Positions 2,870 to 33,712 of a stretch of DNA of 33,712 nt are shown here, one piece after another (position 1 is the first letter of the stretch; every line of letters starts with the position of its first letter). The translations under genes were made by a program, and so were the position numbers. Under the pieces are notes generated by a model. That model did no database searches and was not told the DNA's origin. It worked only from the letters and a program-made list of their open reading frames with translations. Origin of the DNA: Plicaturopsis crispa FD-325 SS-3 (Eukaryota; Basidiomycota; Agaricomycetes; Amylocorticiales; Amylocorticiaceae); assembly GCA_000827205.1 (NCBI GenBank), contig KN832560.1, forward strand, positions 61,430 through 95,141, given 5' to 3'.

Positions 2870-2960
2870 TTGTAATGTTGGCTTTAGTAGAGCCACAGCG
2901 CATTACAAAGTCAGGCTCTACAGACCTGCCAGCCATTTTCACATTGTAATGTCTCCCAAA
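2870..2960 (+). repeat. Left terminal inverted repeat of element 1
   Basis: It shares with the reverse complement of about 7100-7187 the pattern TTGTAATGT, then TAGTAGAG, then CACA and CGCATTACA. It is itself hairpin-like: TAGAGCC/GGCTCTA arms lie inside TTGTAATG/CATTACAA-type motifs, with a further CATTGTAATG near 2943-2952. The match to the right end is imperfect, so the copy is not fresh. Confidence 0.6.
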
Positions 2961-3259
2961 AGATTTTTTCGGTCTAATCATGTGACTCCCTAGGATTTCG
3001 GGCAGCTGTGCATACTAATAATAGCCTACAATATCTATCTTCAAATTCTAAATCGGGCTGGACCTCGTTTGAGTATTGTTGTGCCAAAAATAATTTATGC
3101 TATTTTTACTGTACAATGGTGCCTACTGGGGCCGCACTAGCAAAAGTGCAGGTCAGGTGTACATGTAGGCCCACGGTCGCGATCTCGGAGACTGGGTATA
3201 CCCAGTTGGATCGCTGTTGGGGCCCAAGCCTGTGTTACTCTAGTACTCTACAGATACGG
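2961..3259. other. AT-rich subterminal region of element 1
   Basis: No gene is seen. It contains the perfect 16-bp palindrome ACTGGGTATACCCAGT at 3191-3206. Composition changes sharply at about 3255, where the GC-rich exon DNA begins. Confidence 0.45.
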
Positions 3260-3953
3260 GCAGCGGGGACGTGCACCGGAGGCGCAGACACGGACGGGAA
3301 CGGCATGGACGGAGGCTGCGCGGATGCGCACAGCGACATCGTCGCATGGATGGGGTGGATGGTAGGGCCAGGGACAGTGGGGGTGTGCACGACGCAGACA
3401 GGATTGCGCCGCCGCGCACGTCAACAACGTGCGGACAGCGCAACCAGGACAGAGCGAGTGGGGACAGCAGGGGCGTGCGCGGTGCGGATAAGGCTGCACC
3501 ACTGTGCACGTCCACATCAGTGTGGGCGCGGACAGAGCGCACGGGAGGGCACGGATGGCGCAAACGGGCATAGCGGGAACGGGACGGGGCAAACGGGGAC
3601 GGCGCGAGCGCGGAGGGGGAGGGGGGGGCATGGGGTGCGGACAGCGCAAACGGGACAGCGCGGGCAGCGCAAACGGGGGCGGTGGGGGCGTGGAGGGGCT
3701 TTGCTGGCGCGCACCGTACAGGCGTGCACGGTGCGGATGGCGTGGGCAGTGTGGAGGGAGCTCCGCTGATGCCAGCGAGGTCGCTGACCGCGCGAGCATG
3801 CGCGGCGCGAGCGGGAGATGGGCGGTCGGGGCTGCGCTGAGGCGCACGGCGAGGTCGCGGACCGCAAGGACGGGGGCTGCGCGGGGGTGTGTGGTGCAGT
3901 TGTGGCTTTGGGCGTGGAGAATGCACTCGTGGCGACACCTACCGCCTGCTCTG

Positions 3954-4010
3954 CCGCATCGTTCGCGCCCGTAGTGCCTGTGTCTGGCACAGCCGGCGCG
4001 TCGGATGCGG
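3954..4010. repeat. 57-nt nested inverted repeat, copy 1
   Basis: CCGCATC pairs with GATGCGG, CGCGCC with GGCGCG, and GTGCC with GGCAC, nested around a 7-nt loop with symmetric internal loops of 3 and 4 nt. Copies of equal length occur at 30865-30921 and 33486-33542. On the minus strand it encodes SASDAPAVPDTGTTGANDAA in exon 3 of the outward unit, so it could be a coding constraint, an RNA structure, or both. Confidence 0.7.
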
Positions 4011-4139
4011 AGTAATGAGCTGGCGGGCGGGTGTGCTCGTCGCGTGCCCTGGCCCTCCCTCGCTTTCCATCACCCTCCCTCTCTCGCACCGGCCCTCTAT
4101 GCTTCGAACGCGAACCCGATTTGCGGGACTTGGACGTAC

Positions 4140-4200
4140 CTGACAAAAACTTGGGGTAAGCATCATAAATCAACGGTGGAAAAATGAAAAAAATGCTTAC
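4140..4200 (-). other. Intron 2 of the leftward unit, element 1
   Basis: Donor GTAAGC and acceptor TTTTTGTCAG on the minus strand; 61 bp, AT- and T-rich between two GC-rich exons. It matches in position the intron at 33311-33370 of element 3. Confidence 0.6.
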
Positions 4201-4449
4201 AACGCGAAGGAGAACGCCAGCGGAGGCCCCGAGAGAGTGCAGGGGGCCTAACGTGCACCGCCGAGGTATGGGCGACGTGGGCGGCGGCGGCGACGGCGGT
4301 GCATGAGCATGATGCGGAGGCGGTGAGGGTGCGGGGAGCGAGGGCGCGATGAGGGTCGCGTTTTAGTTGGAGGGGGTGGGAAGTGCCGTGTGTGGGGTGG
4401 TTGCGCAAGGCGGCGACGTCGTGGGGGTACGAGAGAGGGTGTGACGTGG

Positions 4450-4507
4450 CTGGCAAAACAGTGTTAGCACTGGTTTTCAATGATAATAGAAAGAAAAAAT
4501 AACTTAC
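4450..4507 (-). other. Intron 1 of the leftward unit, element 1
   Basis: Donor GTAAGT, branch-like GCTAAC and acceptor GCCAG on the minus strand; 58 bp. It is followed by exon 2 starting CCACGTCAC, as in the matching intron at 32996-33052. Confidence 0.65.
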
Positions 4508-4532
4508 TTGGGATAAAGGATGAATGATAGAC

Positions 4533-5546
4533 ACCCCTCGCATTTCTGCGAGGGGTAGTGGGCCGGCGTCGTGGTGCGCAACGACAATTTGACGACAAAG
4601 GGGAGGTGGACGACGAGCAGGAAAAGAAAAAACGAACATTGCTGACGCGTTCGTGAAATTAAAACTCCGCCGGAGACGCCCGAACGCTGCGCGCGTTGCC
4701 TCCGACGACGCCGAATCACTGTCCTCAGCAGCAGTGAGGGCATCGTAAAATCCACAAATAATACAGGACAGTCGTATATACATGTACATCAAGTGTACCA
4801 AGTTTTAGATTTTTCTAACCGACCTAAAGTAGTCAGTGAGCGAAATACCAGCCAGAAAGTTTGCAACAGTTTGCAACACTGAGGCATGCTCACTCCAGTT
4901 GTGCTGGCAGTCCTTTTACTTCAAAAAAAATAGATTTGGGATTGGGAGGTCCTATTTGACATATAACCAGCTTGCAGAAATTATCCAGGCAATGTGCCCA
5001 GTGCTAGAGCCAGTGCTGATACACCGAAAGCCTAGTGGCTGAGCGTCGCGGCACGTCCGAAATGTCCGCAATGCTAGTTTGGCGCGATCTCGAGCATTTC
5101 AAGCTCCTGCAGCGGGCACACGATATGTACTCCCTCATAAAATCACACCTGGGGGTTTTCTAGTATGGAGAACACGAATATGATTTTTTCGGAATAAAAT
5201 ATCCAGGGGGTGTAAGTGTAGAGACAGAGTAAAGCTTGATTGTCCTGAAATTTGAAGTCTTTGACATATCGGGTCATACATAGCTGTCAAAAATATCGGC
5301 CACTCTGTATACATGTTCTAACTGCTTCAAAATATATATCCTGATTTTACTGCATTTAAATAGCATTGTTTGAAGCATGCAGACGTCGTCGAAAGCCCGT
5401 GTGGCCACTGTGCGCACGGGCCATCGGAACTCGGAACCAACCAACGCGTCGTCGATGGTTGGTTTTGCTCTTGCTCGTCGTCGCCCTCCTCCTCTGCGTC
5501 CACGCACGCCTCGACGACATCCCCACCCCCGCGTCTTCGCGCGGGG
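4533..5546. repeat. Hairpin-bounded palindromic core of element 1
   Basis: The left edge is a perfect hairpin, ACCCCTCGCA/TGCGAGGGGT with a TTTC loop (4533-4556). The right edge is CCCCGCG/CGCGGGG (5527-5546). From each hairpin inward come a GC-rich first exon with similar layout, then AT-rich DNA, so the core is symmetrical but diverged. The left arm matches the arm at 32.79-32.97 kb and the right arm matches that at 32.14-32.33 kb, both in reverse orientation. The centre includes GTGCCCAGTG (about 4995-5004), a motif also found at the centre of element 2. I infer a bidirectional promoter; no TATA box can be assigned with certainty. Confidence 0.7.
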
Positions 5547-5573
5547 ATGTCTTTGTGATGTACTTCACAACTC

Positions 5574-5629
5574 GTGAGTCCATATTTCAATTTTCAGCCG
5601 CTCGTTCGAAACTAATCCCCTCTTTGCAG
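5574..5629 (+). other. Intron of the rightward unit, element 1
   Basis: GTGAGT donor, CTCGTTCGAAACTAAT branch region and TTTGCAG acceptor; 56 bp. The branch context resembles those of the introns at 32060-32113 and 25687-25747. The next exon starts CCACGCC. Confidence 0.65.
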
Positions 5630-5639
5630 CCACGCCCGC

Positions 5640-6715
5640 ATAACAACCCGAACAACGCCGTCGACCACCTCCCCAACGACCTCCACGCCCACCGTCCTAC
5701 GCGCCCACGCAGACGCAAACGCCCACGTCCACCGCGGCAGTCCATGCCCGCGCCAACACCCACCGCGACGGTTTGCGGCTGCGCCCAACGTCGCAGTTCA
5801 CACCCCCGCCCGTACACGCCCCACCCGCCGTCCCACTTACGCCGTCGCCCACCATCTCGCTCACGCCGACGCCGGCCTCCTACGCCCCGCCGCCGCACGC
5901 TCGCGCTCTGCCAGGCAGCAGCGCGCAGCTGTGCGCCCGGCGCCTTCGTCACCCACCACCGCCACGGATGCCCGTCGACAGACGGCAGCGGGCAAGCAAG
6001 AGCAGGAACGCGAAGAGGGTCGGGAGTGCGAGGGCGAGGGCGTCGGAGTCGCCAGGCTCGGGCGCAGACGGCAACGAACGACGGGGCACTATGCCCTGTC
6101 GTTCGGCGTCGTCTTTGCCTTCGCGGTGACGACGCGAAGACACACAGCACGGCGGCGCGACCTCACAGGCAGGGCAGCGGCGAACGGCGGGCACTATGCC
6201 CCGTCGTTCGACGCTGTTCACGCCCTCTCCGCTCGTGCCCACGCCCCACGCCCTCCCTTTCCGTGGGCGTGCTCGCACCACGCACACCCCCACCCTGCGT
6301 GCGCGCGCGCGCGCACACACACCCCGCGCACACACACACCTGCGTTGCGCGCACCCCCAAGCCTTGCGCAAACGCCCACGCCCACGCGCACACCCCCCGC
6401 ACACACCCATGCCTTCCGCACGAGCACCCGCCCTCCGCGTCCGCCTCACGCCCGTGCACGCCCACGCCCCCCATGCACACGCACGTTCTACGCGCACGCC
6501 CACACCCTCCGCGCTTGCGCTCGCCCTCTGCGCACACAGCCACACCTTCCACGCACGCGCCCGCCCTGCACGTCCACCCCACACCCGTGCATGCCCATGC
6601 CCCATGCACGCGCATGCCCTACGCGCGCGCCCACAACCTCCGCGCTCGCGCGCGCCCACCGTGCCCGTCGCACGCAGCCCTTCACCCGCCGCGCTCGCAC
6701 CTACGCCGCCCGCGC
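5640..6715 (+). repeat. C-rich minisatellite-like exon of element 1
   Basis: Short irregular units rich in CACGCCC, GCGCACA and CGCACGCCC repeat for over 1 kb, densest at 6230-6715. Strand asymmetry is strong, with C on the plus strand and G on the minus. Two palindromes around GGGCACTATGCCC (6075-6105 and 6181-6210) sit inside. Long frames on both strands here follow from low-complexity GC-rich DNA and are not evidence of genes by themselves. Confidence 0.7.
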
Positions 6716-6720
6716 GGTGT

Positions 6721-7100
6721 TTTTTTTTTTTGAAAATTCCTCGCATGTATTTAATAGAGAATAAATTTTATTTCCATTCCAAACTGCAAGCAGAAACGCC
6801 AAAGAGAAAAATAAGTGAGAAAAAGCAAAATAACGATGTGAGGCATGTACGGAGCGACACGAAGGTTTGAGGAAGCACGGAAAATAGCCGACTCCTCCTA
6901 CGAGATTCCCAAATGCGGATGCGACAATGTCGCGAGGCACGATTGAGTAGCCGGAACAGCAAAGAAGCAGCCAAGAACGGAACGATATGTGGATGCTACT
7001 GATTCCGAAGTTTTTCGAGGATCCGAGGCTGCAAAGGGATGTGCCAGGTGGGGGATTCACTAGGATTGCCCAAGTGGCTGAAGTGGCTGAAGCGACGCTG
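6721..7100 (-). repeat. Conserved AT-rich tail of element 1 (repeat R1)
   Basis: About 350 bp, from GCATGTAT at about 6744 through GGATTGCCCAAGTGGCTGAA near 7072, matches the reverse complement of 30430-30770 in element 3 with scattered substitutions. It joins the rightward unit to the right terminal repeat. No coding role is evident, although a short frame (GDSLGLPKWLK) is shared by both copies. Confidence 0.7.
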
Positions 7101-7187
7101 CAATTTCCGCATTGCAATGTGTAGAGCTACTGTTACAGGGCTAGATACTGTAATGCGGTGTGCCTCTACTACTCTAGTACATTACAA
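7100..7187 (-). repeat. Right terminal inverted repeat of element 1
   Basis: Ends CATTACAA at 7180-7187 and matches the left end in reverse complement, with CATTGCAATG, GTAGAGC and TGTAATGCGGTGTG motifs in the same order. The same motif order is seen at 30322-30400. Confidence 0.6.
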
Positions 7188-7195
7188 TATAGGTA
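7188..7195. repeat. Right target-site duplication of element 1
   Basis: TATAGGTA, matching TAGAGGTA at 2862-2869 at 7 of 8 positions. Gypsy gag sequence resumes immediately beyond it on the minus strand. Confidence 0.6.
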
Positions 7196-9048
7196 CAAAG
7201 ACTGGTGGCACGCCTTTGCAGGGTACACGGTGGGCAATTCAGCTGTTAGTCCTCCCACTCTGGATTCCTTTTGCAAGGATCCGCGCCGTCTTGCGACGTC
7301 GCGTCAATTACATCCTTTCGCAAGGAAATGTCCATCGCTCCCGGCGATGGTAGATCCAGTAGAGAAGCGCCCTCGGCGCAAGGAATCGCTCGCGCTTTTC
7401 CTTTATCTAAGGTAGAGGCTGCCCTTCGCTCGTTCCGGTTGTTCGGTGAATGCGCTGTTCAATGCGCTAAGAACGCGTGAACAGCCTGATTTTCACGGAC
7501 ACGAGCTGAACCTTCCCCCGTGTCATACGGCTGGTAGCTGTAGTCCCCCTTCTTAGACTCAGATATGGTCGTCACTACTGGATACTGGGCAACGGAACGT
7601 TCAGATTGTTCCATCATCTGTACATACAGCACATCCCTTCGAGCTTCCTCTTCTGGGTCCAAGTCCACTTCGATTAAGTTGGCGGATCGTAGAGCCGTGT
7701 AGTGACCATAATGCGGGCAATCTCTATCCCAGTGCTTGGGGCTAGCGCATACCCGGCAAGGTCCTGGCGGGGGAGATTTGCTAACGACCGAGTCGTCCCT
7801 GCTAAAGCGTGGCTTCCCAGATTTGTCCACCAGGGGGGCTTCCTGAGCGGAGCGGCCCTTGCCCCTCGAGCCGGTTTTGCCACGCATCGGTTTCTGCACA
7901 GACATAGCCTCTGCTTCCGTGCCTGACTCGCTGGAGGACGACTCAAAGTCGGGAACGAGAGGGTTCTCCGATTCGGTGGCATGAGCTGTGCGCGTTCGAA
8001 AGGATTGGAACCCGGTTCTCCTCGGACCCCATATTGCTACCAGACTCTTGTCTTGTTCCCGGGCCCTTGACAGAAGCTCTTGGATTAAGTGTTCAGGATG
8101 GGGGCCCACTCCACGGGCGTGTTTCGTAGGATTGCGTGTAGCTCGTTAGATCCGCCGCCCCGGGGGGTTGTAGAGTAAACGATACAGACGGATTTTCCAA
8201 ACGATACAGACGGATTTTCCTTTGCAGGAAATCCACAGGCGACTCAGAGGCATGCCCCGAGTCCCAGAAACGCATTTCAGCAAATTCCGAACCCTTGTCC
8301 TGTAGCCACTTGTCGCCCAGGAATTGTTTGATGATGGCCGCGAGCAGCAAGGACCAATCTTGCTCCAAGTAGTTTTTTGCGTCATGGGTCATCGCGTTCC
8401 ACCAAGTTTTTGCGCTGCCTGTCCATCTCGTCCAACCAAAACGAGCTACGTCGTGGGATAGGGCGGGACTCTGCCGCGCTAAGTCGGTAGCCGAGGCTAT
8501 GTAGTCCAAGGTGGAATCATCAGTCCCGTCCCATTTTGGCAGTACCTTCATATGGAACCTCGGATTGATGCAGACCTCCGTATTGTAATTAGAGCCATGA
8601 AATGATAGATTTTCCGGGTTATCGTATACGTCCCCGGGCTGCCCCCCAGGCAGATCTCCGGCGGGGCCTGGGGGTCCAGTGGGCAATCCCGCAGGTCGAA
8701 GATTGGTCGGAGGAGAGTAGTGGCTGCCTCCGGTGGAGGAAGAACGGCTCGGTGGTCTACCTCCTCCTGGTCCACCGCCCGGCCTCCTCCTCCTGGGCCC
8801 CCTCCTCCGGGGTCTCCTCCTCCGTAACCTTGTGGGCGACCTCGGTGCAAATCGCTTCCACCGTCCTGGTCGTCGTTCGGGTCAGGCCCATCCCCTGGTG
8901 ATTTGTTAGCAGTAGGTCCTCGACGGGGAGCTTGGGATATAGATCCTCCTTCAAAGGTAGCGAACGTGCGGGACGGGAACACTGTATGGGTAGTTGGTGG
9001 AGGTGTAGGAACAGGCCGTTGAATCTGTGGTCCCTTCTGGGAGGCCCT
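7196..9048 (-). pseudogene. Gypsy gag, C-terminal part with zinc knuckle, inverted
   Basis: Read leftward from about 9048. A Pro/Gly-rich region comes first, then a capsid-like domain (WTRWTGSAKTWWNAM, then EMRFWDSGH). It is followed by the CCHC zinc knuckle CRVCASPKHWDRDCPHYG near 7715-7765, which binds nucleic acid in retroelement Gag. The frame is broken at least three times: a shift near 8600, a 22-bp tandem duplication at 8177-8220, and a TGA at 7459-7461. After that stop the same frame continues open to about 7230. Gag is on the minus strand while RT is on the plus strand, which is impossible in an intact element. Element 1 cuts it at 7196. It is a non-functional remnant. Confidence 0.8.
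8177..8220. repeat. 22-bp exact tandem duplication in gag
   Basis: A 22-bp unit starting AAACGATACAGACGG occurs twice in a row (8177-8198, 8199-8220). Because 22 is not a multiple of 3, it shifts the gag reading frame. Confidence 0.85.
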
Positions 9049-13330: not shown

Positions 13331-13993
13331 GAGTCACACTAAACTTGGAGCCGGACTCCACGGACTCGAGTTTGAAACTCCGCTTGAAATTTGGTATATA
13401 TACTGTAGTCGCGTCGATTGCGCAGGATCACATCTTGACCACCGATTGTTCACTTGACGTTTCTTTCCTCTATCTTTTGTCTCTCTTCTACCGACTCTTC
13501 TTCGTCTTTCGTCTCTCGTCTCTCTTCTATCGTCTCTACCCTCGTCTCTACTACTCTTCCGTACTCGCTTGTGCTCGTTCTCGTTCAAGTTCAACAACCC
13601 GTGTATTGCCCCTTGGCTTCATCGCATATCGTACCTGGTGTTAGGTGCTCTCTGTAAGAACCGGGCCACTCGCAATGAACCCAGAACCACTGAGCCAAAA
13701 GGCCACAATATCAGGTTACTGATATTAGTTTGCGAGCGCTATATATGTTGATCGCACAGTTCAATCCCCTTTAACCAGTAGAATGGTCGGTTCATGACAC
13801 TCTCGAACTTCGAGGAGGAGGACCCGGAAGGAACAGTGAGCGACGCGTTTGACTAAGTTCGACTCCTGAGCAGCGGGTGATTACAAGAAGAGTCTAAATG
13901 CTAGGCATCACACGTCCCACCTCTGCAAAAGACGCTGCGTCGGACAGCTCCTGCGAAGGAGAGGCCCAGCCTAGGTAAGAGAAGAAGTAGACC
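13331..13993 (+). other. LTR-like spacer after the gypsy integrase
   Basis: No gene is seen. A TATA-like GGTATATATACTG (about 13393) is followed by a TCTTC/TCTCT-rich tract (13455-13560), as in a fungal LTR promoter. TCATGACA at 13792-13799 could be an LTR end. A perfect inverted repeat AATATCAG/CTGATATT with a GTTA loop lies at 13707-13726, and a CTCCT-GCGA-AGGAG hairpin at 13948-13961. I found no match to the 5' LTR-like region at 1-1094, so this may be the LTR and leader of another element. Confidence 0.4.
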
Positions 13994-14506: not shown

Positions 14507-14573
14507 CGCAGGAAACTCCGGCTCACTTAGCAACTATGTTGACGTCCGTGAATCAGTACCCTTCCCCAGAGGA
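14108..14573 (+). repeat. Left copy of a 466-bp exact duplication at an assembly gap
   Basis: Identical over its full length to 14594-15059, with only the N run between them. This is the signature of two contig ends that overlap but were scaffolded with a gap instead of being merged. Confidence 0.9.
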
Positions 14574-14593
14574 NNNNNNNNNNNNNNNNNNNN
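14574..14593. other. Assembly gap of 20 N
   Basis: Twenty N bases. The identical flanks show that the real distance is negative, that is, an unmerged overlap. Confidence 0.98.
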
Positions 14594-22672: not shown

Positions 22673-22729
22673 TATGTCAGCTCACATCTCTCGCAGCAAC
22701 GGAGCTTGAGCATCCATGAGCAGGCGTCC

Positions 22730-23440
22730 TTGTAATCGTTTTGTAATGTCCTCTTATTCTTACTGCCTCGAGCCATTACAATTTCTCCTGTTCCTTACCG
22801 CACAGTAAGTCTCTGGCCCACATTACAATGCACTTCCGCAATCCTATCCCTTCAGGATTTCCCTTTGGCTGCTTCCGGGCTGCCCGCAAATCCTGCTGCT
22901 GACAAATCGTTCTCCCAGGCCATTCTTCGGGCAGAAAACTGGCGTTCAGTACTGCCCGCGTTGGTTCCCCTCGGTACCTATCCCTCCCTTCCTCCCCCAC
23001 TAATTCGGAACTCGGAGAATGTCCTCCGGCGTTGAGTAGCACATTCCTCGCGCGCATTCTGCTTCCCCATTTTATTCCTTTTTCACCTCATGATGTACCG
23101 TTAATACATTAAGTACTGAAACATTTCCCCCGACCTTATGTATTAATCCTCGAATGGTGCCAGTTCAGGATTTAATACATTAGGACTGTTTCTATTGCAT
23201 TAATGGCCCTGTCCCCGGCTTCTCGGCCACTTGCCTCTGCCAGTCGGACCTTAAAATGCCCCCCCCCTCGGCTCTCGGCCGCCGTCCTCGTATCCGAAAA
23301 CCTCGGAAATGCGGAATTGGGCCAGCAATGCACCCGGGCGATATTCTGCGGGCTGCTCGAATGCTCGCAAAAATCACAAAAAAAAGAAAAAAAATCAAAT
23401 CTTATTAAATGTACTCTATAGAATACATGAGCATGGATGG
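22730..23440. other. Left end and tail of element 2
   Basis: No gene. CATTACAAT/TTGTAATG words sit in the first 100 bp. Around 23110-23210, TTAATACATTA-type words recur (TTAATACATTAAG, TTTAATACATTAGG, ATTGCATTAATGG). An A-rich run at 23380-23400 precedes the GC-rich array. Confidence 0.4.
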
Positions 23441-24560
23441 GATGTTGCGCGGGGACGCGCAGCGCCGTTTACCCATCGGGACGCGCACTTCGATGGCAGG
23501 CGTCGGGTGTGGCAGGCACACGCGACGGGGGCTCGCGCAGGATGCCCTGGCAGGCACGCGTACGGGCACCCAATGCCGCGCGATGGGCGCGCGTAGGGTA
23601 CGTGCACCGTGCACGTTCTTCGACGGCCGGGTGCTTGGCGTACGTTGGCTCGCGCTGGGGTCGCGTGTGCGTGCTGGCGTGGGCACGCGATCGCACGTAC
23701 CACGGCGTGATGTGGGAGCCGTGCTAGCGTACGGGTGAGGTGGGCTGATATGGGGGGTTTGCGGCTGTCGCGGGACGCGCATGGGCGCATTCCTGTCGTC
23801 GTGGGCGTGGGCGTTCGTTGGCGTGGGCGTTCGTTGGCGTGGTCATCGTGCAAGTGGGGCGGGCGCTCGTGTGAAGCGCGCGCGCTGTGACCACTCGTGT
23901 GAATGACCAGGCGCGGAGGTGGCCGCTGGAACAAGTCGGCGTGGGGGAGTTTGTGGGCGTCCTGGCGACGTGGGACATGCACGGGCTACCGGTTGGCACA
24001 CGCGCGTGGAGCCGTGTCCGTGCTCTTCAACGTCAGGGCGTGGGGCGCCAGCCGGCGCGAGCAGGCGTACGCCAGCGTACGCGATCGTGAGGCGGCGGGC
24101 TGGCAGGGAGAAGGACCAGCGTACGCTGGCGTGGTGGTGGTGCGCGTTGGTGTGGTGTCTACGTGCGCTGGTGTGCTCGCTCGCGTGGGGTCGGCGTGCG
24201 CTAGCGCGGAAGGGGCTGGGGTGCGGTGGACGGATGCATGTGCGCGACGGGGCGTGGGGTGCGATGGGATGCGGACTGGGGTGTGCTGGCAGTGGGCTGC
24301 GCGCTGGGGTACGTTGGGGGTGATGGGCGTTGGTGTGACGTCTATGTGCGCTGGTGTGCTCGCTCGCGTGGGGTCGGCGTGCGCTAGCGCGGAAAGGGCG
24401 GGGTGCGGTGGACGGATGCAGGTGCGCGACGGGGCGTGGGGTGCGATGGGATGCGGATTGGGGTGTGCTGGGAGTAGGCTGCGCCCTTGGGTACGTTGGC
24501 GCGTCCGGGTGCGGCTGGCGTGCGCTGGCGTGCGGGTGTGCTCAGTTGGTTGACGCGGTC
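23440..24560 (-). repeat. G-rich (sense C-rich) minisatellite of element 2
   Basis: A block at 24230-24290 recurs at 24410-24470 (GCGCGACGGGGCGTGGGG, then GCGATGGGATGCGG), giving an approximate 180-bp higher-order repeat at 24160-24480. The rest is irregular GCGTGGGCGT-type units. The sense strand of the outward unit is C-rich. Confidence 0.7.
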
Positions 24561-24809
24561 TTATGCTGGCGTGACGTGTCTGAAAGCAAACCTATTAGCG
24601 CTCGAAATAACGGATGAAAAAGAATGTTAATGCTCACAATGGAAATCGAAAGGGAATGGGACACCCCCTGCAAAGTTGCAGGGGGTGGGGCGTCGTGGTT
24701 GCGTGGAACATCGCTGAGGACGAGGACGACGACGAGGAGAGGGAAAACGAACAGCGACGACGCGTCGTTTTCGTTTTCAAACTCCGCCGGCTTTCGCCGC
24801 GGAGGCACT
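23986..24809 (-). CDS. Leftward spliced unit of element 2, open over two exons
   Basis: This is the best evidence that the outward units can be translated. Exon 1 (24638 to about 24808, same frame open upstream) carries PPRRKPAEFENENDASS, a hydrophobic stretch LFVFPLLVVVLVLS (a possible membrane anchor or signal), then NHDAPPPATLQGVS, the last part encoded by the hairpin. The intron is 24580-24637 (GTGAGC, GCTAAT, TTTCAG; 58 bp). Exon 2 enters in phase 0 and stays open for 197 codons to a TAG at 23986, although it is made of repeated Pro/His/Thr/Ala/Arg units (SALAHADPTRASTPAH appears twice). The total is at least 254 residues. No ATG lies in frame near 24808, so the start is unknown. No known family. 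Confidence 0.5.
24580..24637 (-). other. Intron of the leftward unit, element 2
   Basis: GTGAGC donor, TTCATCCGTTATTTCGAGCGCTAAT branch region shared in part with 25687-25747, TTTCAG acceptor; 58 bp. Exon 2 starts ACACGTCACGCC, close to the CCACGTCAC start in elements 1 and 3. Confidence 0.65.
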
Positions 24810-25661
24810 CCTCGACGTCGGTTTCGACGTCCAGGGCCTCAAACAAATCCATTTAAATCAGGGAAAAAAACAGCAGCGTCGTATATGCGTGAATACCATT
24901 GCACATACGTCTCAAATATTTTTGTGAAGAAATGGCCAGTCAGTCCATCAGAAACCACGAAACTTTGCGACTTTCAGTGTATTTGTGGCGTTGTTCCGTG
25001 TATAGGGCCTTCCCCTCTTCGTTTTAAAATCTGAAAAAATCGGAATCGTGTTCAGGGGGTAGGAAAATCCCCAGAATGAATTTTCTGTGAAGATCCCACC
25101 GATGTGCCCACTGCAGGACCTGAAAACGACCATTAACGCCAGGTTAGCGCTGGTCGATTGAACATCGAGATGTTCAGTTCTGACGCTCTGAAGGTCGCTT
25201 TCATGTCCTGAGGTGGGCACATCGGTACGATCTTCACAGAAAATTCATTCTGGGGGTTTTTCTACCCCCTGAACACGATTCCGATTTTTTCCGATTTTAA
25301 AACGAAGGGGGGAAGGCCCTATTCACCAAACGACGCCACAAAACATTGGAAAGTCGTAAATTTTCGTGCTTTCTGACGCACTGACTGACCCCATCTCTAC
25401 AGAAATATTTGAGAGTTGCCTCGCGTTTTCCTAAGGCATATACGACTCCACTGTTTTTTTCTCTGATTTAAACGGAATTTTTTGAAGCGCTGGACGCCGA
25501 TATCGACGTCGAGGAGAGCCTCCGCGGCGAAAGCCGGCGGAGTTTGAAAACGAAATCGACGCGTCATCGCTGTTCGTTTTCCCTCTCCTCGTCGTCGTCC
25601 TCGTCCTCAGCGACGCTCCACGCAACCACGACGCCCCACCCCCTGCAACTTTGCAGGGGGT
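24663..25661. repeat. Palindromic core of element 2 with terminal hairpins
   Basis: A 999-bp imperfect palindrome with its centre near 25160. Both edges are the same perfect hairpin, ACCCCCTGCAA/TTGCAGGGGGT (24663-24686 and 25638-25661). The arms, about 490 bp each, match along their length: first-exon DNA, CGTTTTAAAATC, AATCGGAATCGTGTTCAGG, GAATGAATTTTCTGTGAAG and GATGTGCCCAC at the centre. The similarity is high but not perfect. It would act as a two-sided promoter, or fold into a large hairpin when single-stranded. Confidence 0.85.
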
Positions 25662-26570
25662 GTCTTTGGGTCATCGTTTCTATATTGTGAGTCTTTCTAA
25701 TCTTTTTCATCCGTTGTTTCGCGTGCTAATGGCATGCCACCTCACAGGGACAACAGCAAAAACACCCCCCGACGTCGATTCCACCACCGTCTCCGACCGA
25801 CCCGCCAGCCATATGCGTCGTCTCCGTGCCCGACCCAGCCGCGGCACGTACGCCGCTCCCGCGCAGCGCACCGGAGAGCCAAGCACCCGCGACGGATGAG
25901 TAAGGGCCCCCCTGGTGAGTTTTTCTTTCCTTTTCATCGCATTTTCACACCGGGGGCGCAGCAGCAAGTACGCTGTTTCGCCCCTGGAACTACGGATCGC
26001 ACACGCCGTGCCCCCGGTGTGGATGTGTCATTTAATTGATTACTGACATTTTCTCTTTTTCTTTTTCCAGCATTTCGAGCACCCCGCCTGCGGTCGCGCC
26101 CCCTTACCAGAGTCGCTACACCGCCCTCCCCGCGCCTCTACTCCAACCTCAAGCATGCCCCACCGCGCTGCGCACGCGAGAGGCAGCGTAGACACCCCCT
26201 GCCTCGAGGTGACGTCAGGCGCTCTGCGCCTGCGCCCTTTCGATTTGCGCCCCGGCTGATGGCCGTGGCTCAAGCGACGCGTACGCGTACGCGAGCACCG
26301 CAGGACGAGAGCGCCCAGCCGCACGGCTAGCCGCGAGCATGGACGGCTGACGACACGACGGGCCTCGCCACGGCACGAAGGACGGAGGGCATGATGCCCT
26401 CCGTTCCTCGCTGTGAGTAGGCCGTCCACCGTTGTCGTGGGCACGGGTGCGCACACAGACCCACGCCATCCGCCGCGCTGGCGTGCGCGAGCGGCTGCCG
26501 GTGCATTCCCCGCGCCGCGCTGATTGCGCATTAGCCGGCGCCCCCCTCTAGCCTTTCGCGAGCGCGCGCA
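25450..26570 (+). CDS. Rightward spliced unit of element 2
   Basis: Exon 1 mirrors the left arm (PPRRKPAEFENEIDASS, LFVFPLLVVVLVLS, NHDAPPPATLQGVS, then LGHRFYI to 25686). The intron is 25687-25747 (GTGAGT, GCTAAT, TCACAG; 61 bp). Exon 2 enters in phase 0 (GQQQKHPPTSIPPPSPTDPP and on) and ends at GATGA followed by GTAAGG, at about 25900, so either a TGA/TAA stop or a second donor is used there. A second intron to GCGCAG near 25962 and a third ending TTTTTCCAG at 26071 are plausible. Downstream to 26570 is Pro/Arg-rich GC DNA. The start codon is not clear. Confidence 0.45.
25687..25747 (+). other. Intron of the rightward unit, element 2
   Basis: GTGAGT donor, TTTTTCATCCGTTGTTTCG then GCTAAT branch region, TCACAG acceptor; 61 bp. 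It mirrors 24580-24637 on the other arm. Confidence 0.65.
26376..26410. repeat. Palindrome around GGGCATGATGCCC
   Basis: Arms GGACGGAGGGCAT and ATGCCCTCCGTTC pair almost completely. Related palindromes lie at 6075-6105 and 6181-6210 in the C-rich exon of element 1. Confidence 0.6.
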
Positions 26571-26882
26571 CGACGTCTGCATTGTGCGGACGCAAGTTTT
26601 TTTTTCATTTCTTTTGTAGTAGATGTAAACAATGAAATATAACCTCGGACGCGTACCCATGACAAAAAAAGCAAAAAAAGCGAGATAAAAAAAAGAAGGT
26701 GAGTCTAGGCTAGGTACATGAAGTGCGCACCATACGAGAACGACAAGAAAATGAGAAAATCGCCTGAGAAGAGGGCAAAAGGTCCGCATACATCACAAGG
26801 ACGAGATTCCGAGCGTATCGGACATTTTCGCACCCAGGAAATCGGTTCGGAGGCCCGATCCAAGCAGATAATTAGAAATATC
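26570..26882. other. AT-rich spacer right of element 2
   Basis: No gene. T-rich and A-rich runs (26586-26595, 26665-26700) may be the 3' end of the rightward unit. No CATTACAA terminus was found. Confidence 0.35.
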
Positions 26883-26929
26883 GGGGATATTTCCGAAAGT
26901 TTCCGAAAGTTTCGGAAACTCATGAACAG

Positions 26930-27680
26930 CCCTTAAGGGATATTTCGGCGTTTAAGCGTTAAGGCATCGTTTGGCAAATATCCCTTAAGGTGTATCAAGC
27001 CGAATATCCCTTAAGTGACGTCCGTTAAGGCATACACTCTCAAATATCTCTTAAGGGATATTCACCACACCGACCCTTAAGAGATACATTGCATAAAATT
27101 CCTTAAAGGATATTTCGAGAATATCCCTTAAGGGATAAACAACAAGGAATCCCTTAAGAGGTATAAAGCAAACTAAGTCTTAAGGGATAAATCCTCGGAT
27201 ATCGCTTAAGGTGTGTTTCTCGAAACATCCCTTAACGGATGCCCGGACGCGCCAAACGGGATATAGTTAAACAAAATCGAGACAATACATTCAGACGTTT
27301 GGCGCAGTGGTTGGGAACGGCGACGTTATTATTCCCAGTCGCGTGTAAGGTTAAGAGTCCAAGTTCGACTCTCGCGAAGTAGTTTTTTTTTTTTTTTTCT
27401 CGAGCCTGGCCCTCAAGCTTTATTCGGGGTGCTAGGCCTTAAGTGATATTCGAGCGTACAGCCCGTAAGTGATATTCGAACGTATATCCCTTAAGGGATA
27501 TTTGGTCTTGTATGCCTTAAGGACTATTTAACGTTGTAAGCCTTAAGAGATTGATAGTTTTCAACCATATGGGTATTCTTGACGACGAGGTGCCCTACAG
27601 GGTTTCAATACTACACGCCTTAAGGGCTAAAACACGAGTAATGTCTTAAGGGATATTTACCAGGATAACCCTTAAGGGAT
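26930..27680. repeat. Array of CCCTTAAGGGATAT palindromes
   Basis: More than twenty copies of TTAAGGGATAT or its palindromic form CCCTTAAGGG, spaced about 20-50 bp with degenerate spacers. The unit is self-complementary, so orientation cannot be read. TTAAGGG differs from the usual fungal telomere repeat TTAGGG by an extra A. Confidence 0.8.
27296..27400 (+). ncRNA. tRNA-like Pol III transcription unit (SINE-head-like)
   Basis: TGGCGCAGTGG at 27300-27310 is a full match to the tRNA A-box consensus. AGTTCGACTCT at 27362-27372 is a close B box, 51 bp downstream. A long T run (27383-27398) is a strong Pol III terminator. GCGAC/GTCGC could form an anticodon-like stem with a 13-nt loop, but the acceptor and T arms do not close properly. 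It is therefore not a convincing functional tRNA, and a tRNA-derived SINE head or decayed tRNA gene is more likely. Confidence 0.55.
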
Positions 27681-27725
27681 GTTCACGAGTTTCCGAAACT
27701 TTCGGAAAGTTTCCGAAATATCCCC

Positions 27726-27908
27726 AGTATTCCCATCGCTCTCCATTACTTGGGATCCGACATCCACTAACCACTCTATATTTTAGCTCAGTTGCATTTC
27801 TGTGATTTCTATCAAAAACGAATTTTATTGCTCTAACTCATAACTACTACTACTAAGATCTAACTAAGCAAAGCATGAGACAACGAAACATAATGTAGAA
27901 ATAAACCA
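27726..27908. other. 3' flank of the six-exon gene
   Basis: AT-rich, no coding frame; the presumed 3' untranslated and downstream region of the minus-strand gene. Confidence 0.4.
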
Positions 27909-30311
27909 TTAAGATGCGAGACGTTTCGACCTGCGAGATGTCAGTGAAAGAAGTGAGCTCCGAAAAACGGTTGAAAACATACCGCCGTTCACCCTGCGAG
28001 CTTTCCGGAGCCTTCCTCTTTGTGCCCCCAGACGTCGATGTCCGCGACGACGATGCCGGGGCAGCCGACGACGACGACGACAACGCAGGGGCAGCCGATG
28101 ACGACGACGACGCAGGGGTGGAGGCCGAGGGTGTGCGGGGCGTTTGCGCAAGGCGGTCCAGGACGAGGGCGACGTCGGCAACGGCTTCGTGCCAGTGCGA
28201 AACGCCGTGGATGGGCTTCATCCGTGTCGTATTGAAGAGCGCGTGTCCCCACCACGACAGGCAGGTCATGACGAGGACAAGGCCACAGCTCCCCGCCTGC
28301 CGTAGGCGGTTCCAGTCCAGCTCGGGGCTGGAGTCGGCAGGGCGGACTCCACCTCGTCGTACGCGCCCAGGCGGTTGGAGGTTCGTCCACCACATCCACC
28401 AGGCCTTGTCGAAAAGGTCGAGGCTGCCGATTGGGTAGTCCTTGCTCGTGTCGCGGTGGGTCTTGATCCAAGCACTGACCTCCGACGGCCAGTTGGCAGT
28501 GGTGAAGACGGTCTTTTTCTCGTGGAGCTAAAAACCATGTTAGTACGACTCAGACCTGTAGAAACATCTTTTACTCACCGGAAAACCCTCGCTACGTTCA
28601 AACTCGACAAACTTGCCCACACACGTCTCCCATTCCCTACCCCACGATTTGCCATTGGTGAAGAGATTGAAGAAGCTCGTCATGAGCTCGGGCCAGTCGG
28701 TCTTGTCGATTGTGGAGAGCAGCGACGCCTCCGTAGTGTTTGGTGGCCCGGGGTCGACAGTAGCACTAGTAGCGCCCTCTTTTGGTATGCCACGCGGACG
28801 GGGGCGAGGGCGAGAACGATTGAGCCCAACCAACTTGTCCACGCGAGCCTGACGTGCAGCCTTCAGCTCTGCCAACTTGTCAAAGTCACCGCGGACGTCG
28901 CTGCTGCCAAGCGAGTTAACGGGTGCGTGGGCGCTGCCCGTTCCGGGGTCGGAGTTGTGTTGGGCTGCCGGTACGTTCGATGTCGTGGAAACAACAGCAG
29001 GAGCCGCAGGCACGGCAGCGGAAGAGCCCCCAGGAGTCGTGGTAGGCGCCGTGTCCGGGGTAAGCGCACTGTCACTGGAACCGCCTGCGGCGACAGAGGA
29101 GGCAGGAGCCGCGGCTGGCGCGGCAGCGGCAGCAGGCGTTGCAGCAGGGCAAATGGCGGCACTAGGGGCCGTGGTTGGCACGGCAGCGGCAGCGGCGGAG
29201 GCAGGAGTCGGAGTAGCGGGGCCAGCGACGGGGCCAACGACAGGGGCAGCATCGAGGGCAACGGCGGGGGCAGCAGGGGGAACGGCGTGGGCAGCGTCGG
29301 GGGCAGCGTCGGGGGCAGCGTCGGGGGCAACGGCGGGGGCAGCAGGGGCAATGGCGGGGGCAGCAGGGGCAATGGCGGGGGCAGCAGGGGCAACGGCGGG
29401 GGCAGCGTCGGGGACAGCGGGACGAGAATTGTTGGATGTTGAGGAGCCGGTGACGGAGGAAGCGGACCCTGCACCTTCCAACCCCAACCCAAAAGCCTCC
29501 GCATCTTCTTTATCTCGCCTTTCCCCCTCTTCGAGCCATTCCTCCCGATCCCCGTTCACACCGAAAAACTCTGGCGAGGGCGACCTCGATGCTGCCGGGG
29601 TGACAATTGGAGTGACCCCTGCAAAGGACGTGCGTGGCGGGACACCTGTCGCCGTCCCGTCGTGCATGTTGATATCCTTGCCCCCCGGCATCTGGTACAG
29701 GCGGTCGTGGGAGCCCGATGCTTCGGATGCGGAGCGGCTTGATGGTAGTGCGCGAGCCGCGCGTTCCTCAGGTGCTATGAATGAAAGAACGTTAGTTACT
29801 GATAAAACCATTGACAATCAGTCGCCGAGGGCCTACTCACTGAAAACCTTTTGAGCAAACTCGTTCAACGAGTCGCGTATAATCTGCATAGCACGTTTGT
29901 CGTAATCGCACCATTTCTCCGGAACTAGACCTCGCGTAGCTCCTGCATGAACACTAAGAGACACTGGTCAGCGGGCACCTAATCATAAATAGCGAAAAGC
30001 CCACCTGAAAATTTCGATTTCCCCGCCTTTCTCAGGGACCGGGCCCGTCATGATGATAGCGGTCACCAAGCCTGTCTTCTCCTTGAGCATTTTCGCCATA
30101 GGGTCCAGATAGTACCGGGCGTCGGACAGCGCTCTGAGAGGTAGAGGTTATGCGTTAGCAGCTGCTTAGTTGAGACGCAATGGGGAGGAACTCACTGTTG
30201 GAATTGCTCGGGCGTGCGCGGAGCCCCGCCTGTCTGACGTGTTTCAAAACTCTCCAACTGCTCCGCCCTTTCCACCTCGGCCAAGGCCGCTAGGTCCGCC
30301 TCACCAGTCAT
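27909..30311 (-). CDS. Six-exon gene of an Agaricomycete family of unknown function
   Basis: The model on the minus strand has exons 30196-30311, 30005-30133, 29841-29953, 28579-29774, 27983-28527 and 27909-27930. All introns are GT-AG (48-66 bp), most with clear CTAAC or CTGAC sites, and all phases agree, giving 706 residues. The N-terminal domain has LSDARYYLDPMAKMLKEKTG, then IMTGPVPEKGGEIEIFSVHAG and a KRAMQIIRDSLNEF helix. A long Ser/Pro/Ala-rich linker with APAAPAIAPAAPA repeats follows. The C-terminal domain is Trp-rich (WPELMTSFFNLFTNG, FDKAWWMWWTNLQPPGR, SCGLVLVMTCLSWWGHALF, HWHEAVADVALVLDRL). It ends in a basic, nuclear-localisation-like tail (GGTKRKAPESS, RRSKRLAS). I know similar proteins from mushroom genomes, where they are uncharacterised. 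The start ATG lies 11 bp from the end of element 3, and the frame is open further upstream into it, so the original start may be altered. Confidence 0.75.
29225..29425 (-). repeat. In-frame Pro/Ala minisatellite in the six-exon gene
   Basis: GGCGGGGGCAGCAGGGGCAA-type units of 24-30 bp repeat several times and encode PAAPAIA and DAAPDA blocks in the linker. Units are multiples of 3, so the frame is kept. Confidence 0.7.
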
Positions 30312-30429
30312 TGTAAGTACATTGTAATGTACTATGATTGTAGCCCCCCATCGAGTTACAATGTATGGCTCTATAATCATAGCCTTAGACATTACAATGC
30401 AGATATTCATACGTCGCCTCGGCCCCTTC

Positions 30430-30770
30430 AGCCACTTGGGCAATCCTAGTGAATCCCCCACCCGGCATATTCCCTTTGCAGCCTCGGATGCTCGAAAACT
30501 TCGGAATCAGTAGCATCCCCATATCTTTCCATTCTCGGCTGCATCTCTGGTGTTTCGGCTACTCAACAGTGCCTCGCAACATTGTTGCGTCCATATTTGG
30601 AAATCTCGTAGGATGAGCCGGCTATTTGTGTGCTTCTTCAAACCTTCGTGTCATACCCCATTGCCTGCTCCTATATATTCACTTTTTGTCACCTATTTAC
30701 CCGTTGTAACACTTACTACTGATTGGGAATCACAACATAATTTATTTTCGACTATATACATGCAAAAGTA
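30430..30770 (+). repeat. Conserved tail R1 of element 3
   Basis: Reverse-complement match of 6744-7090, from CAGCCACTTGGGCAATCCTA through GCCTCGGATGCTCGAAAAC and AAACCTTCGTGTCAT to AATTTATTTTCGACTATATAC. The A/T-rich end faces the GC array. Confidence 0.7.
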
Positions 30771-30864
30771 TATAAAAAAGCGGAGCGGGGAGGGACAAAG
30801 CGGCGACATGCATGGCCGCGACGCGGACACTGGTGGATAACGGCGGCACCTGCCACCCGCTCAG

Positions 30865-30921
30865 CCGCATCACTCGCGCCCGTAGTGCCCGGGTCTGGCA
30901 CAGCCGGCGCGTCCGATGCGG
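30865..30921. repeat. 57-nt nested inverted repeat, copy 2
   Basis: All three stems (CCGCATC/GATGCGG, CGCGCC/GGCGCG, GTGCC/GGCAC) are intact, while the internal loop (ACT against GTT) and the apical loop differ from copy 1. The minus strand encodes SASDAPAVPDPGTTGASDAA. Confidence 0.7.
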
Positions 30922-31059
30922 AGTAGTGAGCTGGTGGCGGGTGGTGTGCACTCCGGCAACCAGCCTCGGAGCCACGCGTGTACCGCTGGCGACAGCGGGC
31001 ACCCCTTCTACCCTACCTTCGCCTGTCTCCGCTTCCCGTCGTGCGTCGTGGCATTCGCT

Positions 31060-31900
31060 AGCACGCGAAGGAGGCGTAGACGTGGAGGGCGAGGGCGTGG
31101 GCGAAAACGCGGAGGGCGTGGGCGAGAACGCGGAGAGCGAGGGCGCGCAGGGCGTGGGCGAAAATGCGGAGGGCGTGGGCGTGAACGCGGAGGGTGCGGG
31201 TGAGGGCGTGGGGGCGCAGGGCGTGGGCGAGAACGCGAACGCGGAGAGCGAGGGCGCGAGCGTGAGCGCGCAGGGCGCAGGCGTGAGCGCGCAGGGTGAT
31301 AGCGTGAGCGCGCAGGGCGCCGGCATGAGGGCGCAGGGCGTGGGCGAGAACGCGGAGAGCGAGAGCGCGCAGGGCGTGGGCGTGAACACGGAGGGTGCGG
31401 GTGAGGGTGTGGGGGCGCAAGGCGTGGGTGAGAGCGTGAGGGCGCAGGGCGTGTGCGAGAACGCGAACACGGAGAGCGAGGGCGCGAGCGTGAGCGCGAG
31501 CGCGCACGGCGCAGGCGTGAGCGCGCAGGGTGATGGCGTGAGCGCGCAGGGCGCCGGCGTGAGGGCGTGAGCGCGCAGGGCGTGGGCGTGAACGCGGAGG
31601 GCGCGGGTGAGGGCGTGAGGGCGCAGGGAGTGGGTGAGAGCGTGAGGGCGCAGGGCGCGGGCGTCAGCACGGAGGGGGAGAGCAGACGCGCGGAGGGCGT
31701 GCGGGTGTGATCGCGCAGGGTGTGAGCGCGGAAGGCGCGGGCGCGGGCGGGTGCGCATGAGCGTAGAGGGCGAGGGCGCGGAGAGTGTAGGTATAGACGG
31801 GGAGGGTGCGGTGGACGTGAGCGCGGTGGGCGTGAGTGCGGAGGGCGTGAGTGCGGAGGGCGTGGACGTGGGGATAGCCGTCGTGCAGGGTGAGAACGCG
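31060..31900 (-). repeat. GC minisatellite exon of element 3
   Basis: Units such as GAGGGCGTGGGCGAGAACGC and GCGCAGGGCGCAGGCGTGAG repeat over 800 bp. Two long blocks at about 31200-31330 and 31400-31560 are near-copies in the same order, a higher-order repeat of about 200-240 bp. The sense (minus) strand is C-rich. Confidence 0.75.
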
Positions 31901-32059
31901 CAGAGCGCGCCCTGCCGACCCTAACATGTTGGCAGCGGCGGTGGTGCGTGTAAGACGAGGGGCGGCGGCGGCGAGCGTGAGCATGGAGGAGGTGGTGGTG
32001 TAGCGCGTGAACGCGGAGGTGGTCGTCGTCGTCGCGGGGCCGCTGTCTTTGCGACGTTG

Positions 32060-32113
32060 CTGTTAGCCGCTGTTAGCTTCGAATGAGCGGATAAAAACAC
32101 AAATAAGACTTAC
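32060..32113 (-). other. Intron of the leftward unit, element 3
   Basis: GTAAGT donor, CATTCGAAGCTAAC branch region and CTAACAG acceptor on the minus strand; 54 bp, or 44 bp with the alternative acceptor. Confidence 0.6.
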
Positions 32114-32140
32114 CATATAATAAAAAGAGCATAAAGATAC

Positions 32141-32970
32141 CCCCCGCGAGGACGCGGAGGGTGGACTGTCCGTCGTAGCGTGCAGAGACGCTGGGGAGGT
32201 GAGCGACGACGAGCAAAAGAAAATCCAACGTTGACGACGCGTCGGTTAGTTCCGAGTTCCGATGGCCCGTGCGCACAGCGACCACACGGGCTTTCGACGA
32301 CGTCTACGCGCCTCAAATAAATCGTTTCAAATGTAGTAAAATCAGGTTGGTCGGCGGTGTACTGTTAGAGTGTACATACAAAGTCTTAATTTTTTTGAAT
32401 GGCTGGGTGCAAGGGGATAAATCAAAACTACGCATATCCGACCATTCCGGACTTTTTGACAGTTCCGCGTTGCTCGAGTACTGTACTTTCTGCGCACTTG
32501 CGCAGGCTCTGACAGTGGGCACATCAACCAGATACTCCCCGGATTCTCGGAATACGCTAGGGTACATGTATTCATAGTGAATATATTTTCTTCAGAGTAA
32601 AATAGCTCCCGATGCGACATGGGTTAGTATGCCCAAAGTGTTGCAATCTGTCGCAAACTCTTTGGCCGGTGTTTCTTCCACTCACTCATTTCTGTCCGTT
32701 AAAAAATTACGAAACTTGGTACAATTAATATTGATGCATTAAACAGTCCGCTACATTTTTTGAGAGCAAAACAATGCATCCAAACGCGCAGGAATGGCAT
32801 TCGGTGTCGTCGGAGTCGTGGCGCGCAACGTTCGGGCGTCTCCGGCGGAGTTTGAATTTCACGAACGCGTCGACAATGTTCGTTTTTCTTTTCCTCGTCG
32901 TCGTCCACCTCCCTCCCCACATTGCTGCGCACCACGACGCCCGCGCACCCCTCGCATTTCTGCGAGGGGT
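32141..32970. repeat. Hairpin-bounded core of element 3
   Basis: Bounded by the imperfect hairpin at 32141-32161 and the perfect hairpin ACCCCTCGCA/TGCGAGGGGT at 32947-32970. The latter is identical to that at 4533-4556. The centre is AT-rich and includes CAGTGGGCACATC near 32514, the reverse complement of the central GTGCCCAC motif. At 830 bp it is shorter than the other two cores. Confidence 0.7.
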
Positions 32971-33712
32971 GTCTATCATTCGCTTCTTATGAAAAGTAAG
33001 TTTTCTTTCCCTTACTTGACCATAGAAACAAGTGCTGACAGTGTTTTGGCAGCCACGTCACCACCTCGTACCCCTCCCCATACCCCATCTCCTCAAGACA
33101 TCGGAGCCTCGTGCTCGACACACAACCAACACACACACACACACACGGCACGCCCTACACCGGCCGCCTTCATCCTCACCCCACCCACTCTATATCAGCA
33201 ACGCACCCGACGCCGTCTCCACGCGCCGTCGCCGCCCACCTTCTATCACCCCCGCACAACGAGCCCTTCGTGTCCGCAGCCTGGCCTCTGCTATTGACCC
33301 TGGCCACTTCGTAAGTCGTTTTTTAATTTTTTCTACCGTTGCATTGCAAAGCTAACCGCAAGATTTTCAGTCGGGCACTTTTCTCGAGGATCGCGCTTGC
33401 GTTCCGAGCACGGGGAGCGAGCTAGGGCGTTGGCACCCAGGGGAGGGCATGGGCAAGCGGCGAGCACACCTGCTCACTCACCACTCCGCATTCGACGCGC
33501 CGGCTGTGCCAGACCCAGGCACTACGGGCGCGAACGATGCGGCAGACCAGGTGGCAGGTGCCGCTATCACTGCATGCCGCATGGCAGAATGCCGTGCAGC
33601 CCCTCGCCCCCGACGTGCACCTCCGCATCCCTGCAGCCCGCGTGCATGCCGTGCAAGTGCACGCAGCTCCCGCCATGTTCGTTTGCCCAGCCCCCGCCGC
33701 GTACGTTCGCCC
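32794..33712 (+). pseudogene. Rightward spliced unit of element 3, partial
   Basis: Exon 1 carries FGRLRRSLNFTNASTMFVF, LVVVHLPP, HHDARAPLAFLRGVSII; the left unit of element 1 has the same frame (FGRLRRSFNFTNASAMFVF). Intron 1 is 32996-33052 (GTAAGT to GGCAG; 57 bp), exon 2 is 33053-33310, intron 2 is 33311-33370 (GTAAGT, CTAAC, TTTCAG; 60 bp). Exon 3 runs past the window end and encodes SAFDAPAVPDPGTTGANDAA. A TGA precedes the first donor in the conserved frame, so this copy is probably broken in exon 1. A (CA)n run lies at 33130-33147. Confidence 0.55.
33486..33542. repeat. 57-nt nested inverted repeat, copy 3
   Basis: Opposite orientation to copies 1 and 2. One stem change (CCGCATT for CCGCATC) leaves a G-T pair; the other stems are intact. 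Confidence 0.7.

Follow-up and report, generated by a model that had tools for sequence, protein, structure and literature searches.

Introduction

For mushroom-forming fungi, descriptions of KDZ transposons cover transposase- and TET/JBP-bearing members only, as far as the sections of the source used here extend (PMC12730594). According to these sections, the Kyakuja elements of Agaricomycotina, which belong to the KDZ group, have 7-bp target duplications and CA..TG termini, and Kyakuja-1_LB and Kyakuja-2_LB are printed without terminal inverted repeats. The same sections give 8-bp target duplications for Zisupton and one Dileera element, and 7-bp target duplications for the hAT7 elements of rust fungi (PMC12730594). 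Here, I analyzed a stretch of 33,712 nucleotides of Plicaturopsis crispa FD-325 SS-3 (contig KN832560.1, C7:61430-95141 in the contig numbering of this study; hereafter, the window) together with the genome of 33.2 Mb in 49 contigs. The window carries three related regions, elements 1 to 3. Judging from their sequences, elements 1 and 3 are likely to be non-autonomous members of the KDZ group of cut-and-paste DNA transposons, in which Kyakuja comes nearest to them, and element 2 very probably goes with them. The core inside these elements may be a bidirectional promoter for non-coding transcripts.

Termini, target duplications, and copies

An earlier note on this window had proposed a mobile family with no transposase seen, in which three similar regions have TTGTAATG-type ends, an AT-rich palindromic core with a GC hairpin at each edge, and two outward spliced units. 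The similarity of the three regions holds on alignment, and nucleotide searches revealed many more copies in the genome (all counts include the window's own copies). The element 1 core gave 43 match rows, the whole of element 1 gave 83, and the element 2 core gave 110 with both strands counted; positions 4500-5500 of the window have five near-full-length matches, self included. In an alignment of the flanks of five copies, the termini lie 20 bp outside TTGTAATG. The left terminus is CAGGCGTCC(Y)TGTA and the right terminus is ..GACTGGTG, and together they form imperfect 28-bp inverted repeats. The TTGTAATG motif does recur, as the earlier note had seen, but it is subterminal, just inside the repeats (positions 2870, 7187, and 30322). 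The flank comparison thus ruled out that TTGTAATG is itself the end of the element, next to a TA duplication; the true termini are at 2850/7207 for element 1 and 30302/C7:96686 for element 3.

Element 1 is complete and spans 2850..7207 on the plus strand. Its left terminus (2850..2877) ends in TTGTAATG, and its right terminus (7180..7207) reads CACCAGTC..TTGTAATG on the minus strand. The target duplication GCACGCC flanks it at 2843..2849 and 7208..7214. Element 3 lies in the minus orientation; it occupies 30302..33712 of the window and continues to C7:96686 (window coordinate 35257, beyond the window), and its duplication is AGGCGGA. When the flanks are joined with one copy of the duplication, the empty site of element 1 restores an open frame and that of element 3 restores an exon frame. 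Thus, elements 1 and 3 insert as units with conserved termini and a 7-bp duplication. The eight short complete copies extracted, namely element 1 (4358 bp), C2 (4139 bp), C1 (4378 bp), C43 (4312 bp), element 3 (4956 bp), C36 (3955 bp), C7:1427 (4013 bp), and a C6 copy (4267 bp, with A in place of Y at the left end), all have CAGGCGTCC..GACTGGTG ends of the CA..TG type.

Across the genome, the exact left-end pattern has 24 matches and the right-end pattern, with up to three mismatches, has 16 (12 with none), while the reversed controls have 0 in both cases. Left and right ends on the same strand were paired at a spacing of 0.5-40 kb. The search for full-length copies with target duplications that the earlier note had suggested was productive, since the flanking 7-mers are identical in 11 of the 13 end pairs. 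One more pair, C6:1796626-1824055, matches at 6 of 7 positions, and the last one (4 of 7) is a mispairing of an inner C10 left end with an outer right end. A mobile family is therefore borne out by ends and duplications, and no transposase was seen in the short copies.

Element 2 is a different case. Its left end at 22721 (terminus 22721..22748, plus strand) is of the CAGGCGTCC type and belongs to a different subfamily, yet the window showed no right end for it, and the flank CCATGAG occurs there only once. So, of the three elements delimited in the earlier note, the first and the third are bounded by ends and duplications, and the interval of about 22730-26720 lacks support as a complete second element.

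Larger elements enclosing KDZ matches

What moves these short elements? PF18758 has 43 match rows in the genome and was matched in none of 14 control genomes. At C5:1146067-1161058 (15.0 kb), both ends of an element were read, with GCCGAGG duplicated on each side, and a KDZ match of 129.6 bits lies inside. A 151-aa piece of its transposase was read; its relatives in the protein database number 474, and some of the best 120 of these 474 are named KDZ transposase. Two other elements were delimited by prediction. The left flank AAGATAG on C9 predicted a right end CTGGTGAAGATAG, which is indeed present, on the same strand, at C9:1226016, and the resulting element (C9:1213771-1226021, 12.3 kb) encloses two KDZ exon matches. 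Likewise, the right flank CCCCACC on C26 predicted a left end, and one in the expected orientation lies at C26:34551; the element C26:21280-34556 (13.3 kb) encloses a KDZ match. The exact 13-mers occur twice (C9) and three times (C26) in the whole genome. Degenerate patterns for the partner ends showed no excess over reversed controls (50 vs 54, and 23 vs 21); thus, the weight of the predictions rests on the exact place, the strand, and the 7-mer.

The ends of large and short elements pair by subfamily. The terminal 60 bp of the C5 element are 92% and 88% identical to those of the short element C43, and the C26 right end is 88% identical to that of the short element C6a; the pairing of the C9 left end with element 2 is weaker (75%). 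The KDZ match lies 10.4 kb from the right end in C5 and 10.6 kb in C26, in the antisense direction, and the KDZ segments of these two are 73% identical. The similar distance and this identity argue against independent nesting. In C9 and in C27, the distance is about 2.0 kb, in the sense direction. The large elements share little else with the short ones among the matches listed: the search with the whole of element 1 matched the C5 element at the terminus only (105 bp), and none of the searches with the element 1 core, the element 2 core, or the whole of element 1 listed a core match in the C5, C9, or C26 elements (for the latter two queries, the best 40 of 58 and the best 40 of 49 candidates were scored, respectively).

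Since the same termini and 7-bp duplications enclose KDZ matches and the ends are of the Kyakuja type, the family appears to be KDZ and Kyakuja-like rather than an unknown superfamily. The novelty claimed in the earlier note, a family of no named kind, is in this respect unsupported in the form given there. The likeness to Kyakuja consists of the 7-bp duplications, the CA..TG termini, and the KDZ-type matches in the larger members. On the other hand, in the sections of PMC12730594 used here, the printed Kyakuja families are TET-positive, whereas the present KDZ-bearing members have no TET/JBP match, and there is no mention there of short members that lack a transposase and have a divergent hairpin-intron core. 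Zisupton and Dileera share the KDZ transposase group (PF18758); the difference lies in the 8-bp duplications that the same sections give for Zisupton and for one Dileera element. Among the literature matches listed, a text search for CAGGCGTCC gave nothing related, and no non-autonomous KDZ family, or one of the miniature inverted-repeat transposable element type, is described in their titles and abstract openings.

Several observations weigh against this placement. Kyakuja-1_LB and Kyakuja-2_LB are printed without inverted repeats, whereas the present elements have imperfect ones of about 28 bp; the elements are therefore placed as KDZ, Kyakuja-like, rather than proven Kyakuja. Two of the four partner-end predictions failed: for C25, no partner was nearby, and for C27, the exact 13-mer was present only on the wrong strand. 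Among the ends listed, 13 of 25 left and 7 of 19 right ends were partnerless, of which the C9 left end and the C26 right end were later matched. The orientation of KDZ relative to the ends differs, being sense in C9 and C27 and antisense in C5 and C26. TET/JBP (PF12851) has six match rows genome-wide, all of them outside the C5, C9, and C26 elements. Finally, these three large elements were placed by coordinates, and since their sequences were read in part, their KDZ genes could be nested insertions, as is the case in C24. Because the KDZ-bearing members were read in part and the Kyakuja trait of lacking inverted repeats is not shared, the assignment falls short of proof.

The C24 case was examined as a candidate. 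A 746-aa CxC4-KDZ protein of the family member C24:169407-179840 was rejected as the family's own transposase, for it lies in a nested element of about 5.8 kb, which has inverted ends and a duplication CGCCGCTGC (8-9 bp) of its own. The protein matches PF18717 (E 1e-40), while its PF18758 match is 21.6 bits, below the cut-off. Could nesting be general, with another superfamily that makes 7-bp duplications mobilizing the family? The hAT7 elements of rust fungi also have such duplications (PMC12730594, in the sections used), although they have a hAT transposase (no search for hAT was made here), and the KDZ genes in the partly read C5, C9, and C26 elements would then be later insertions, as the one in C24 is. 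This seems quite unlikely, as matching duplications flank KDZ-bearing elements at three separate places, the KDZ spacing is alike in C5 and C26 and also in C9 and C27, and the KDZ matches of C5, C9, and C26 all exceed the Pfam cut-off.

Some further observations on KDZ sequences were made. The nested KDZ element is C24:171940-177750 (L017/L042), in which the 746-aa frame is open and long inverted ends, offset by one base, are seen by eye. A relative of its protein, an open frame of 744 aa with 69% identity, is at C17:306017-308239. For a KDZ protein from this genome, 77 homologues were found, and the named ones are from Agaricomycetes, plus one Tilletia. Three of the TET/JBP matches (C1:3185061, C28:22529, and C31:73867) each have a KDZ match (C1:3193199, C28:24963, and C31:69198, respectively) at a distance of 2-8 kb; the genome thus probably also contains TET-positive KDZ elements, outside the family described here. 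The C27 right-end flank, followed by CAGGCG, has an exact copy 4.8 kb away on the opposite strand (C27:126579-126591 and C27:131396), which fits no simple element.

The hairpin-intron cassette

In Ac/Ds-type pairs, the short elements share mainly the termini with the transposase-bearing ones. The present short elements differ in that they carry a conserved, structured, divergent cassette of their own. It is this cargo, an AT-richer core between two divergent units of a stem-loop plus an intron, that looks new. The G+C content of the cores is 0.477 (element 1, 4575..5515), 0.491, and 0.488, as compared with 0.636-0.727 for the arms. The core of element 2 (24700..25625; inverted repeats I1 and I2) has matches on both strands and is a near-perfect palindrome, with 229-nt arms that are 93% identical and 222-nt arms that are 86% identical; a scan for exact palindromes with 12-nt arms found none in the window. 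The AT-rich core with a hairpin at each edge and, in element 2, its palindromic nature, both noticed earlier, were confirmed.

From the core edge outward, a unit consists of a stem-loop (H1), about 50 nt, a GT[AG]AG[TC] donor, a CT[AG]A branch motif, and a YAG acceptor; the arms beyond the intron are G+C-rich and carry further stem-loops. In element 1, the left H1 (4532..4557) and intron 1 (4450..4507; GTAAGT, CTAAC, CAG; 58 nt) are on the minus strand, and the right H1 (5518..5549) and intron 1 (5574..5629; GTGAGT, CTAAT, CAG; 56 nt) are on the plus strand. The same arrangement is seen in element 2 (H1 24662..24687 and intron 24580..24637, minus; H1 25637..25662 and intron 25687..25747, plus) and in element 3 (H1 32138..32163 and intron 32060..32113, minus; H1 32946..32971 and intron 32996..33052, plus). 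In total, 42 distinct units were collected from 27 loci, and the paralogous outward units foreseen in the earlier note occur as a divergent pair, 764-954 bp apart, at 15 loci. The donors are GTAAGT (34), GTGAGT (6), and GTGAGC (2). The acceptor, taken as the first one after a branch motif, is 53-61 nt from the donor in 40 of the 42 units (intron of about 57 nt); one is at 47 nt, and one was not found.

A covariance model of the unit (R1), built from most of the loci it then matches, has 67 matches in 30 sources, some of them at overlapping loci. In several arms, it revealed second modules about 305-370 nt further outward; those in the window, which are weaker, include one in the element 1 left arm (4136..4254, minus; 41.9 bits) and one in the element 3 right arm (33276..33374, plus; 29.8 bits). 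R1 also recovered the right unit of the C24 element, separated by the nested element, at L042:3771. Another stem-loop of the arms, H2 (about 58 nt, 18 instances), is present in the element 1 outer arm (3948..4014, minus) and in both arms of element 3 (30859..30925, minus; 33482..33548, plus). No known structured RNA family was matched in the window at the Rfam gathering threshold. As a separate observation, a GC hairpin with a GGGGCA-CTA-TGCCC center is at 6068-6110 (fold z -6.78), and by visual inspection the right arms seem to contain more hairpins of this kind.

In the aligned units, the H1 stem covaries and the splice signals are conserved. The cells of the H1 stem are paired in 88.0%, compared with 35.6-51.3% in slid controls. 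Double-change cells number 51, vs 19.8±5.0 after shuffling (reached by 0 of 500 shuffles), 7 of the 11 pairs are changed on both sides (4.5±1.1 in shuffles), and the covariation score is 0.289 (0.173±0.013; 0 of 500). RNAalifold alone retains seven H1 pairs, four of them with double changes. H2 behaves similarly: 87.1% of the cells are paired (24.7-47.7% when slid), five pairs have double changes (1.4±0.8 in shuffles), and the further pair types are 13 (11.1±0.8, reached by 23 of 500). For both stems, it should be noted that the shuffles take no account of relatedness and that the structures were derived from the same sequences that were tested.

Not everything favors a conserved cassette. The units were chosen for having a donor as well as similarity at E values of up to 1e-6, which makes donor conservation partly a matter of construction. 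The donor is missing in six rows (five distinct places), one of which, L020, was later recovered by R1 at 73.3 bits. The number of further pair types in H1 is unexceptional (15, vs 14.0±1.2; reached by 172 of 500 shuffles). The cassette may have begun as the start of a captured host gene or as an older satellite, retained only through the amplification of a few masters, and its conservation would then reflect shared ancestry instead of function. The copies are related, the two commonest stem types are split largely by subfamily, so that the double changes may be few events, and the shuffle tests leave this relatedness in, with further pair types no higher than in shuffles. However, the stem, donor, branch, and acceptor are kept while the surroundings diverge (mean column identity 60%), C-G, U-A, G-C, and A-U pair types occur at varying positions of the H1 stem, and H2 covaries too. 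I consider the explanation by ancestry a strong contender with a somewhat less than even chance.

The stem-loops may also act as DNA, serving transposition or replication as cruciforms or as palindromes bound by proteins. The element 2 core is palindromic at the DNA level, and U-G and C-A cells are similarly frequent in the inner stem (9 vs 5), with no lean to the RNA strand. Nevertheless, the stem precedes a conserved 5′ splice site by about 50 nt, a position that ties it to a transcript, and the KDZ-bearing elements have no core match among the matches listed, suggesting that the core is unneeded for their movement. I consider a role as DNA rather unlikely.

Coding potential of the arms

The G+C-rich arms hold long open frames, and an ATG is found near -118 in many units of the element 1 and 3 type; the outward units might thus be protein-coding genes with low-complexity products. 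In alignments of four element pairs, however, phase bias was absent and frame-breaking indels were many. Seven arm queries gave six tests (C36_right had no high-scoring segment pair), in all of which the substitutions were flat across codon phase (p 0.27-0.77; only 22-30 substitutions in three of them). Just 8 of the 90 indels were multiples of 3, and 82 had other lengths. A pol control had a phase distribution of 67/27/5, taken from one 325-bp match, whereas the most conserved block of the arms varied by 0.19/0.20/0.19 (18 instances). The spacing between the ATG and the donor varies modulo 3, and most units of the element 2 type are without the ATG. Protein-coding arms were rejected on the flat codon phase and the indel lengths, and I hold this explanation to be very improbable. 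The outward units behave as non-coding, and while the splice signals and paralogous units reported earlier stand, the term "C-rich exons" should not suggest that they encode protein.

A possible mechanism

Under the KDZ placement, the transposase of the larger elements would recognize the shared termini, cut with a 7-bp stagger as the duplications suggest, and move the short elements in trans. The short elements carry one cassette in inverted duplication around the AT-richer core. As a bidirectional promoter, this core would drive two divergent, spliced, structured, non-coding transcripts, which most likely help to keep the element transcribed and open to the transposase. It is possible that these RNAs have a function under selection. 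In a stronger form, the palindromic two-promoter cassette, kept at at least two dozen diverged loci, would make paired non-coding RNAs, spliced and structured, and selection for the spread of the element would act on their 5′ stem-loop and intron, for example because these keep the element transcribed and let it escape silencing, be it triggered by splicing or otherwise. I regard this stronger form as doubtful.

Neighboring features in the window

A palindromic element of about 855 bp (26877-27731) adjoins element 2. It has inverted ends of about 90 nt (I10, 80%) and a dozen CCCTTAAGGGATAT-type repeats, many of them 26 nt apart (D10). By eye, its middle (about 27290-27390) contains a tRNA-derived-looking stretch followed by a T run; ARAGORN with the bacterial code found no tRNA in the window. 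Element 3 interrupts a minus-strand gene that looks multi-exonic (28540-30301 and L014 7288-8200) and has an Ala/Pro-rich repeat region. The 425-aa frame of this gene has no Pfam match at E 0.1.

Implications

The defined ends and 7-bp duplications make the short members of this family countable, and the shared termini offer a direct route to assay which transposase moves them. The puzzle is why a protein-less element would retain, flanking its core on either side, an RNA-like stem together with splice sites. If the RNAs are indeed selected, this transposon would carry RNA, not protein, as its selected cargo.

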